This document shows, piece by piece, positions 14,926 to 46,841 of a stretch of 46,955 nt of DNA. Source of the stretch: Bacteroidota bacterium (GTDB taxonomy: Bacteria > Bacteroidota > Ignavibacteria > Ignavibacteriales > Ignavibacteriaceae); the NCBI GenBank assembly GCA_021815365.1, contig JAKAGZ010000018.1, forward strand, positions 1 to 46,955, read 5' to 3'. Made by a program: the position numbers and the translations under genes. Under the pieces are notes generated by a model that was not told the DNA's origin, searched no databases, and saw nothing but the letters and a program-made list of their open reading frames with translations. Numbering within the stretch: the first letter of the stretch is position 1; each line of letters begins with the position of its first letter.

Positions 14926-15123
14926 AATAAGTCTCTCCCTTCGCAAGGGAGACCTGCCTGCCGGCAGGCAGGGATTAGAGAGGGTTCAAAGAATTCAGCA
15001 AAGCAAAGAACCCATCCCAACCTCGTTAGAGTCCGACAGACTCTAACGGTCGAAGACTCCGTCTGAGCCTTCGGACTCTGACGAGAGTCTGGCGACCCTC
15101 CCTTAGAAATGGAAGGGCTTATT
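14926..15123. repeat. 198-bp fold-back element with terminal inverted repeats
   Basis: The ends are imperfect inverted repeats about 26 bases long (14926-14951 and 15098-15123; about 19 of 26 match, with AATAAG at both outer ends and AAGGGAG at both inner ends). Inside are a perfect 20-bp palindrome at 14953-14972 (CCTGCCTGCCGGCAGGCAGG), an inverted GGGTTC/GAACCC pair (14982-14987, 15008-15013) and a perfect 10-bp-arm hairpin at 15024-15048 (CGTTAGAGTC-CGACA-GACTCTAACG). The region codes for nothing convincing. It sits between the ribE stop and the tilS start. No transposase is present, so it is MITE-like or REP-like at most. Confidence 0.7.
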
Positions 15124-31113: not shown

Positions 31114-31712
31114 TGCTTCTTAGTCTATTACAAAAGTCGTTAATCCAAAAAATTCATTAGGAATGCCCCGATTTTATCGGCGTGCCGAAGGCTGTCCCCA
31201 CAAAAAGTCGTGGCGGGTTAACCCCCGATAAGCCGTGCAGTAATTAAAGTATTGCAAGGAAAATCTTCTTCTCGATGATAACAGCTTTTTCTCATATCAG
31301 TTACGGCTTGTCGTCCCGAAGAGCAAATTTTCCTTTAGTAAAATTTGGATTAAATATTTATCCATTCCTGCCGGCAAAACCATAAACATTCTTTCATAAA
31401 CAGGTCTTCTTTTCCATTGATAAAACATGAGGTTTTATGTAGCTTATGTCAGGTTAAATCTGAGATAATTAACATAAAACATCATTATAAGAGTTATCTC
31501 TTGAAAGAAATACTAAACTTTACAGAAGATAAAAGAAAAGCCGGCATTCCTGAAATGAAAAATAAAAATATTTCATATCGTTAGTCTGTTCTCCTAAAAC
31601 ATTTGTCAGATCCAGCGGAAAATTTCGCTGCTAATTCAATTCAATTTTTCAATATTGATTGTCCGTATCAGATAATTGTGTTAATTTTTCCTCCGATAGA
31701 AAAAAATTTTTT
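31114..31712. other. Palindrome-rich non-coding stretch
   Basis: No gene is supported here. It holds several inverted repeats: CCGAT-TTT-ATCGG (31168-31180), the palindrome GGGTTAACCC (31215-31224), ATAAAAC-ATGAG-GTTTTAT (31420-31438) and GAGATAA/TTATCTC (31462-31468, 31494-31500). The first two lie in an 85-base stretch with base composition richer in G and C than its surroundings, probably another dispersed repeat. One hairpin may terminate the sigma/anti-sigma transcript, but none has a clear T-tract. Confidence 0.5.
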
Positions 31713-45533: not shown

Positions 45534-46796
45534 TTAAAATTTTATCGGGACATTAATAATCCTTGAGCCTAAAACAAGTATCAGGCGATACAATCTTTTT
45601 AGCGGACCATCGGGCGTCAGCCACCATTTTTCAAAGAGCACTTTAGAAAAGTGCCATATCTTTCCTACTTTTTTAAGTTTTACATCGGGGTTAGGTTCGC
45701 CGTAAAAATTTCCGTAGGCAAAGCCTGCCAGATCCTCGCCCGCTTCGAGCATGCAAAAACCATCAGCACAAAATTCTGCGGCAGCTTTTTTGCCGAGTAA
45801 TTTTGCAGCTATAATATCTGATACAACAACAGCCTGTGAGTGTGCAAACACACCGGCTTTCGGAAGGGGAAGGGGCTTATCAGGGCTCCATCTGCCCGGT
45901 AAAGTGATTGAAGCTACATCGCCAATTGCATAAACATTTTCAAATTTTGTTTCAAGAGTTAATCTGTTTACAGGAATCCATCCCGCCTGTCCGGCAGCAG
46001 GCAAGCCGGATTCATTTGTTAAGCCGGAATCTTTAACAACATCAGGAGCTTTGTGTTTGGGAATCGTAATCAGCAGGTCATATCCGTAAGAATTTCCATT
46101 TTCGAAAAATAATTTGCGATCCTCTTCATTAATTTTAACGAGCTTGTGCAGAGGATAGAAATTAATTTTCCCCGAGCGCAGAAGATCAACCACTGCTTTG
46201 CCTAACTGAGGACCTGCGACCGGTAAAGGCTGGGGTTCAGGAGTAAAAACATTCAGCCCGATTTTATCTTTTAAGTTTCTGCCTTCAAAATATTTTGATA
46301 TTAACATTGCAGCTTCAAAAGGAGCGCCGGGACATTTATAAGGAAGGGATTCGATCACAATGGCAATTTCGCCGCTTGTTACAGTATTTAGTTTATCACG
46401 TAATTTTACTGCTTCTTCAAGAGTGTAGAATGAAAATGCTTCGCGTGTTAGTTTATCAGAATGAGCTTCGAGTTCCGCCCCAAGGGCTATTATTAAGAAA
46501 TCATATTTTATATTCCGTCTATCGAGTTTGATAAGTTTTTCATCTACATTTATTTTTTTTACTTCGGAAAAAATTAATTCTACATTGCGGGGGACCAACT
46601 TTATCAGCGGAACAGAAATTTGTTCCGGGCTTCGTTTATTTACGATCAGCCAGAGATAAGAAGCAGCAAATGAGTGTGTCCTGTTCTTTTCTACAAGTAT
46701 AATTTTATATTCTTCAGGTAATTTTTTTCTAAGATTATTTGCTGCGATCAGTCCGCCGATGCCGCCGCCGAGAATAACGACTGTGCCTTTTACCAT
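45534..46796 (-). CDS. SQR-like FAD-dependent oxidoreductase
   Basis: About 420 residues, of the sulfide:quinone oxidoreductase/flavocytochrome c flavoprotein type. The N-terminal dinucleotide motif is VVILGGGIGGLIAANN; a later FAD motif is VYAIGDVASI. One Cys in YKCPGAPFEAAML and others in FCADGFCMLEAGE are where SQR-like enzymes carry redox Cys, and the C-terminal KWWL region may be membrane-associated. I prefer the ATG at 46796, preceded by a purine-rich stretch, over the one at 46832. An extra peptide, LPAAGQAG, interrupts the conserved SG-WIPV segment near residue 265. It lies between a rhodanese and a DsrE gene. Confidence 0.82.
   Translation of the reverse strand: MVKGTVVILGGGIGGLIAANNLRKKLPEEYKIILVEKNRTHSFAASYLWLIVNKRSPEQISVPLIKLVPRNVELIFSEVKKINVDEKLIKLDRRNIKYDFLIIALGAELEAHSDKLTREAFSFYTLEEAVKLRDKLNTVTSGEIAIVIESLPYKCPGAPFEAAMLISKYFEGRNLKDKIGLNVFTPEPQPLPVAGPQLGKAVVDLLRSGKINFYPLHKLVKINEEDRKLFFENGNSYGYDLLITIPKHKAPDVVKDSGLTNESGLPAAGQAGWIPVNRLTLETKFENVYAIGDVASITLPGRWSPDKPLPLPKAGVFAHSQAVVVSDIIAAKLLGKKAAAEFCADGFCMLEAGEDLAGFAYGNFYGEPNPDVKLKKVGKIWHFSKVLFEKWWLTPDGPLKRLYRLILVLGSRIINVPIKF
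45985..46006 (-). repeat. In-frame palindromic repeat inside the SQR-like gene
   Basis: The coding strand reads GCTTGCCTGCTGCCGGACAGGC here, a near-palindrome closely related to CCTGCCTGCCGGCAGGCAGG at 14953-14972. It is translated as LPAAGQAG and splits the usual ESG-WIPV motif. The insertion is a multiple of three, so the frame is kept. Confidence 0.6.
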
Positions 46797-46841
46797 AATT
46801 CTTCTCTCTCTCTTTAATAAATTGGAGCTCATAGTTAAAAA

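Follow-up and report, generated by a model that had tools for sequence, protein, structure and literature searches.

An in-frame loop in a sulfide quinone reductase-like gene is probably an old insertion of a tiny mobile palindrome

What accounts for eight residues, LPAAGQAG, in the middle of a conserved segment of a bacterial flavoprotein, and how is the DNA encoding them related to a perfect palindrome in the intergenic DNA of the same contig? We addressed these questions in the window, by which we mean the whole stretch of 46,955 nt that was analysed; it is contig C108 of a 3.09-Mb genome in 110 contigs. The loop is hosted by an ORF of 432 aa on the minus strand (45534–46832), characterized from the ORF listing and from Pfam, structure and NCBIfam matches. 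It contains the Pfam domains Pyr_redox_2 and FCSD_central, its best solved relative is the sulfide-quinone reductase 3hyv (E = 1.6e-33) and among the NCBIfam models the one for type III sulfide quinone reductase ranks first, with a score under its cut-off. Judged from its sequence, the protein is a flavoprotein of the SQR/FCSD type; we name it SQR-like because the top NCBIfam score stays below the model's cut-off. We propose, with a probability of about 0.88, that the loop is an old copy of a tiny non-autonomous mobile palindrome of 20–21 bp that inserts precisely and without target-site duplication. The data presented here establish a multicopy family, exact differences of 20 or 21 bp between empty and filled sites, in-frame copies and an occurrence in several phyla; the claim of mobility is limited in that movement within a strain has not been seen and no transposase is tied to the palindrome.

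We searched 59 genomes, our own included, for homologues of the SQR-like protein, obtained matches in 46 and aligned the nine top-scoring homologues with loci (L031–L039); L040, which is partial, the more remote L041–L059 and two further proteins of 55–56% identity (G003:C53 and G014:C51) were left out of the alignment. A sequence-only reading of this DNA had claimed that an in-frame LPAAGQAG breaks the motif ESG-WIPV and had proposed checking whether close homologues lack exactly these residues. The minus-strand codons at 45981–46004, between ESG and WIPV, confirm the break, and exactly this loop is without counterpart in seven of the nine aligned homologues, which read ESG-WIPV or an equivalent there; the two carriers, L031 and L033, belong to other genera. 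The span given at that time for the palindrome, 45985–46006, was close, but the homologue alignment places the inserted DNA best at 45982–46005 (minus strand), 24 bp that comprise a decayed 21-bp palindrome and one extra triplet, in frame. On the minus strand the filled site reads GAATCCGG-CTTGCCTGCTGCCGGACAGGCGGG-ATGG, and the unfilled site of the seven homologues reads GAATCCGG^CTGG or similar. The closest homologue, L031, shares 65% identity and comes from genome G028, of another genus. Its protein reads ESG-LPAGQAG-WIPV and its DNA GAATCCGG-CCTGCCTGCCGGACAGGCAGG-CTGG, in which exactly 21 bp are added to the sequence of the empty site and the target is not duplicated. The same loop built from unrelated codons in other genera would have refuted the sequence-only reading; in L031 the codons agree with those of the window and the 21-bp palindrome is intact. 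In L033 (G027:C8) a longer, diverged loop, GLPGLPGGKQVDQAS, occupies the site, and its ends are still CCTGCCTG and CAGGCAAG, i.e. degraded palindrome ends, so that it is perhaps an independent or a nested insertion.

When the loop is excluded from tree building, the SQR-like gene of the window and L031 come out as sisters (support 100/100) and L033 remains unresolved. The insertion is common to the window and L031 and therefore most simply predates the split of the two genera; on this inference from sequence, the window copy would be an old insertion that later gained one codon and decayed, and gene exchange is not excluded. The shared 21 bp are identical at 19 of 21 positions, compared with 67.1% for the gene (P = 0.014), a difference too weak to separate a single old insertion from gene exchange. 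As single-stranded DNA, the intact 21-mer forms a hairpin of −8.9 kcal/mol (z = −3.78 against shuffles); the gene's own copy folds no better than its shuffles (z = −0.42). In an AlphaFold2 model of the enzyme, computed from 10 sequences, residues 274–282 have pLDDT values below 50, which is consistent with a flexible loop in the prediction and lends weak support to the earlier suggestion of a tolerated surface loop near the FAD; there are no activity data.

The sequence-only reading had further derived the loop from a relative of the perfect 20-bp palindrome CCTGCCTGCCGGCAGGCAGG at 14953–14972 (no strand assigned), which a search of the window recovers as an intergenic copy of the family. This kinship stands by way of the intact 21-mer of L031 and fails as a direct likeness: the SQR-like copy is more than three mismatches away from the perfect 20-mer, its hairpin has decayed, and its membership of the family rests on the homologue L031, whose 21-mer at this site is intact. 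The 20-mer at 14953–14972 is the sole match at ≤3 mismatches in the window (mean of 100 shuffles, 0.00). It is preceded by CTCTCCCTTCGCAAGGGAGA and followed by GATTAGAGAGGGTT, and the three together make up a longer intergenic repeat at approximately 14931–14988 (unstranded); another copy of this repeat, at G000:C82:7309, has a shorter palindrome at the same position. The family consensus, CCTGCCTG-CCGG(N)-CAGGCAGG, consists of two 8-base arms and a loop of 4–5 bases. Rfam gives no match in the window at gathering score, i.e. no known structured RNA.

Genome-wide, the 16-base core yields 36 forward and 33 reverse matches at ≤2 mismatches (near-palindromes score on both strands in these counts) and the 21-mer 20 forward and 14 reverse matches at ≤3 mismatches, with 0 matches to the reversed pattern in either case. 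The family is thereby present far above chance. Counting in-gene against intergenic copies, as had also been proposed, we arrive at about 59 copies: the SQR-like copy and 58 further sites at ≤4 mismatches, of which 14 have an assigned host gene and 44 have none. The census of 58 sites covers the window and the stretches around the matches to the 16-base core and the 21-mer; four places with the 21-mer (two on C105, one each on C107 and C110) lie outside it, and "not in genes" means outside the 14 listed hosts, short ORFs not being judged. The 44 copies form only 22 flank clusters, among them one of 11 and one of 6 copies, because larger repeats multiplied some of them; independent insertions therefore number about 37, not 59. 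The 20-mer and the 21-mer with an A in the loop are free of stop codons in all six frames, and 21 bp correspond to seven codons. For the 21-mer with a T in the loop this property is ruled out, as one frame contains a stop.

The 14 in-gene copies beyond the SQR-like gene lie in hosts named by Pfam: MetRS, ComEC, PHP, 5′-nucleotidase, CCA-transferase/PcnB, GcvT, P-type ATPase, AMP-binding, beta-CASP nuclease, MiaB, aldehyde dehydrogenase, PhoH, UvrD-like and an unmatched protein on C28. Several of these names are shorthand, and NCBIfam agrees where scanned. We joined the 14 segments into one query, ran it against eight related genomes and fetched 40 more stretches; the host alignments took 70 stretches (L241–L310) from among the matches listed, not every match. 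Exactly seven residues are missing, among the matches listed, from all aligned homologues of MetRS (7/7), ComEC (5/5), PHP (6/6), 5′-nucleotidase (4/4), CCA-transferase (7/7), GcvT (7/7), P-type ATPase (4/4), beta-CASP nuclease (7/7) and aldehyde dehydrogenase (2/2); for MiaB, 11 residues are missing in 8 of 8 aligned homologues, again among the matches listed. The bare 21-bp form is accordingly not universal, the MiaB insert measuring 33 bp and the SQR insert 24 bp. Four of the 15 hosts are unclean: AMP-binding (three homologues) and UvrD-like (four) have larger gaps in poorly conserved regions, the N-terminus of PhoH fails to align (six homologues), and for the C28 protein no homologue was found among the eight related genomes. 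Within its own genome the joined query recovers each host once, the ATPase segment together with three weaker paralogues. A second close copy of the host genes was looked for there and not found, even for MetRS; hence no intact spare copy was found.

These alignments bear on the possibility that the loop is ancestral and was lost from most homologues. The SQR-like genes taken alone leave some room for it, since two other genera also carry a loop at this site and the tree requires two changes. In nine other hosts, however, all two to seven aligned homologues among the matches listed miss exactly the palindrome, genomes of another family (G043 or G053) are among the empty homologues in six of the nine, and losses would need to be both exact and recurrent. 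We therefore consider ancestry of the loop very improbable.

The coding phase of the inserts bears on a second alternative, in which LPAGQAG is an ordinary loop that arose by convergent codon use, the DNA palindrome being a by-product. By inference, LPAGQAG has the look of a flexible loop for which many proteins would have room. The same 20–21 bases, however, occur in intergenic DNA and in tRNA pieces, they are read in two phases in proteins (LPAGQAG as opposed to PACPAGR or PAFRTGR), and gaps of exactly 21 bp face them in homologues of unrelated proteins. We reject convergence, which these intergenic and tRNA copies, the two phases and the exact gaps contradict. For insertion of a mobile palindrome, the phase distribution is informative in another respect: 10 of the 15 hosts, the SQR-like gene included, use the LPAGQAG-like phase, five the PACRTGR/PACPAGR-like phase and none the phase beginning CLP. 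The probability of at least 10 of 15 in the LPAGQAG phase is 0.0085, which suggests selection on the peptide; the numbers are small and four of the 15 hosts are unclean.

Comparison with solved structures gives a mixed picture for individual carriers. In Yanofskybacteria RecG (L200), the palindrome peptide faces a seven-residue gap in the solved RecG 1gm5. For MetRS the gaps are 3 + 2 residues, without a clean gap of seven, and WOR-1 phosphomannomutase (L178) has a gap of two residues, not seven. A Staskawiczbacteria ORF of 235 aa, similar to pseudouridine synthases (L213:3285–3989), contains two in-frame copies and reads LPAGRQV twice; against solved structures, a three-residue gap lies at copy one, and copy two falls at the end of the alignment.

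Precision of insertion is also apparent outside protein genes. In an intergenic repeat of our own genome, the empty form L018 reads AAGTCACCGTATT directly followed by TATGAATCA, and L004 is the same sequence with CCTGCCTGTCCAGCAGGCAGG added, exactly 21 bp more. A related empty repeat, L001, is one base shorter than L018, and relative to L001 the filling of L004 is 22 bp. Further palindromes lie within tRNA duplicates in L124 (WWE3), L177, L215 (Flavobacteriales), contig C93 of our own genome, G086 and G018; in G018, five units of one 450-bp tandem array contain one palindrome each. For each of the seven tRNA-derived copies tested, which lie near GIY-YIG genes, the locus also contains an empty counterpart (0–4 mismatches in 24 bases) relative to which exactly 20 or 21 bp are added without duplication, and in all seven the insert sits in the duplicated tRNA piece, with an intact, empty tRNA adjoining (L150 and L158, which are cut off, were left out). 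Target-site duplications are absent from L031, from L018/L004 and from the tRNA-derived pairs of empty and filled sites. Over 154 distinct flanks, direct repeats of ≥3 bases are not in excess, 1-base direct repeats are in slight excess (38 compared with 27 expected), the flank preference is weak (A/G at −1, T at +1, A at −3) and palindromic extension of the flanks is weak or absent.

Intact tRNA genes were considered as hosts and are ruled out: five tRNA-like copies yield no ARAGORN tRNA, either filled or with the flanks joined. The tRNA-like copies are partial duplicates with an intact tRNA adjoining. In L150, from an Agriterribacter humi isolate, the contig ends in a tRNA-like sequence whose D-arm contains a palindrome.

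We determined the distribution of the palindrome at three taxonomic scales. At ≤2 mismatches it is found in 47 of 80 genomes of the family, our own included, and the exact palindrome is found in 33 of 395 genomes of the phylum; the reversed-pattern control gives 0 in both sets. A collection of 84,980 species genomes contains at least 117 palindrome-bearing stretches, and the 117 matches listed comprise 40 from Patescibacteria, 38 from Bacteroidota, 14 from Omnitrophota, 8 from unnamed bacteria, 6 from Nitrospirota, 4 from PVC, 2 each from Elusimicrobia and Ignavibacteria, and one each from Chloroflexi, WOR-1 and Lindowbacteria. Nine of these 117 are NZ_ isolate records, all from Bacteroidota and one of them a complete Maribacter chromosome; the palindrome is therefore no metagenome artefact. 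Isolates of Mucilaginibacter and Winogradskyella, like those of Maribacter, are among the carriers. Taken together with the empty homologues, with L031 and with the genome-wide family, the original proposal that a mobile palindrome entered the SQR-like gene in frame is supported.

The mover remains unidentified, and two agents appear about equally likely, neither as more than a tentative candidate. One possibility is that the palindrome is a repeat of the REP/REPIN type, whose hairpins a RAYT (Y1 tyrosine, IS200-like transposase) excises and inserts as single strands. The hairpin form and the size of the palindrome would fit, and one six-copy cluster lies in repeats beside GTAG-containing palindromes. 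Y1_Tnp genes are present in 72 of the 80 family genomes, and their count correlates with copy number (rho = 0.45, p = 3e-5 in 80 genomes; 0.50 in the 52 that are ≥90% complete). Against a RAYT stand the consensus, which is without a GTAG or CGTC tag, the weakness of the flank preference, and the fact that none of the four Y1_Tnp loci of the genome has a copy (≤5 mismatches) within about 1.1–1.5 kb on each side, one of them having CTCGTAGAG-type repeats instead. In that locus (L227, G000:C71:2700–4000), direct repeats of these palindromes with a GTAG core form a REP/RAYT-like arrangement that is distinct from the CCTG palindrome. A correlation of the same size, moreover, exists for GIY-YIG genes (rho = 0.46 in 80 genomes, 0.66 in the 52 genomes ≥90% complete). 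Both correlations are positive and are uninformative as to the agent.

The other candidate, equally tentative, is a GIY-YIG nuclease associated with duplicated tRNA pieces, which would cut DNA, tRNA genes first, the palindrome being captured at the cut or blocking recutting. Besides the closer correlation in the more complete genomes, it is favoured by proximity: a profile finds five GIY-YIG genes among the 117 matches listed, three of them no more than 250 bp from a palindrome (P = 0.012 under random placement), and adding the gene of L158, recognised by eye and cut off at the end, gives four of six (P = 0.002). Seven sequences went into the profile, among them an out-of-frame piece of 29 residues (L124). 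The location of all seven tested inserts in duplicated tRNA pieces and the five filled units of the G018 array point in the same direction. These observations are offset by the way the stretches were chosen, namely for their palindromes, and by tandem units, which multiply single events. In the genome itself only one of 10 GIY-YIG matches has a copy in its locus at ≤4 mismatches, only two of eight stretches with GIY-YIG from other genomes have one, no connection with GIY-YIG genes came to notice for the in-gene copies, and degenerate tRNA copies may be merely unconstrained landing sites.

Small single-domain GIY-YIG genes often adjoin tRNA genes and duplicated tRNA pieces (L231–L237, L340–L347), an arrangement that spans G000, G001, G018, G025, G028, G086 and G088 and sometimes takes the form of near-perfect tandem arrays (a 315-bp unit repeated 5 times in G001 and a 450-bp unit repeated 5.3 times in G018). 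The whole resembles a separate mobile unit associated with tRNA genes. In L231 (G000:C26:24900–26000), tandem tRNA-Ser pieces contain other inverted repeats, CGTCCTGC...GCAGGACG and CGTTCCAAAGGAACG, at the position corresponding to the anticodon loop; copies of this sort may therefore also receive palindromes of other kinds. Further short inverted repeats occur in intergenic DNA of the window at 15020–15110 and 31170–31380, for example GTTAGAGTCCGACAGACTCTAAC near 15025. On the basis of these sequences alone, they suggest that the genome may contain several palindrome families.

For the insertion of a mobile palindrome we infer the following course. A nuclease encoded by the host or by an element would break or nick the DNA, where single-stranded copies of the hairpin would be captured, and the survivors within genes would be those copies that keep the frame and fall into protein loops, usually a leading C followed by CTG CCT GCC GGA CAG GCA GG (LPAGQAG). 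A bolder version, which we regard as possible and no more, is that the palindrome ranks with the smallest known mobile elements, crosses phyla (Bacteroidota, Patescibacteria, Omnitrophota, Nitrospirota and others) as a precise seven-codon cassette and has the GIY-YIG/tRNA-duplication units as its engine or main landing site. Clean empty and filled sites are available, as are cultured isolates, and both the mobility and the mover are therefore testable. The same seven residues recur in MetRS, RecG, GcvT and other proteins, a repeated natural experiment that maps sites at which proteins tolerate insertion. For annotators, stretches such as LPAGQAG or LPAGRQG in such genomes can be insertions and not signatures of a protein family.

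Protein-coding palindromes have been known from Rickettsia as a peculiarity, and a far smaller one now comes from environmental genomes as well as from cultured isolates of Bacteroidota. NCBIfam holds a curated protein-domain model for the RPEs of Rickettsia; an NCBIfam scan of 10 host proteins at E ≤ 0.01 gave no match to it among the matches listed. RPEs are 105–146 bp long and lie in intergenic DNA, in RNA genes and in frame within the genes of conserved proteins, one host enzyme remaining active (PMC2229807); those of R. conorii end in CGTC (PMC3733652). Both elements are thus palindromic, multicopy, intergenic and in frame within conserved genes. The trait of in-frame copies in conserved genes is met here, the length of about 105–146 bp is not met by 20–21 bp, and the CGTC tag is not met by a consensus ending in CCTG/CAGG; our palindrome also differs in occurring in several phyla. 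REPs are palindromic repeats of 20–40 bp, in some species also inside genes, that have GTAG or CGTC at one end, the GTAG type often lying near RAYT genes (PMC3733652, PMC3116915). REPs and REPINs resemble the palindrome as short palindromic repeats with in-gene copies in some species; they differ in two REP traits, the GTAG/CGTC tag and a RAYT neighbour, neither of which was found for the palindrome in its own genome, GTAG being absent from the consensus end. Elements of the IS200/IS605 group have subterminal hairpins that are acted on as single-stranded DNA (PMC6006769); the hairpin is a point of likeness, and a point of difference is that none of the four Y1 transposase loci of the genome has the palindrome nearby. 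A MITE with terminal inverted repeats, unlike this palindrome, generates a target-site duplication on insertion. Cyanobacterial small dispersed repeats (SDRs) are very small, dispersed, mobile-looking units described for cyanobacteria, and they are perhaps nearest to the palindrome in size. SDRs are mentioned by name in PMC3116915. The palindrome core and its peptides were not found described in the open-licence literature (subscription papers, preprints and supplements were outside the scope), which fits the initial remark that no description for this group of bacteria was at hand. The palindrome works like the RPEs; what sets it apart is that it is far shorter, does without the REP tags and extends across phyla.
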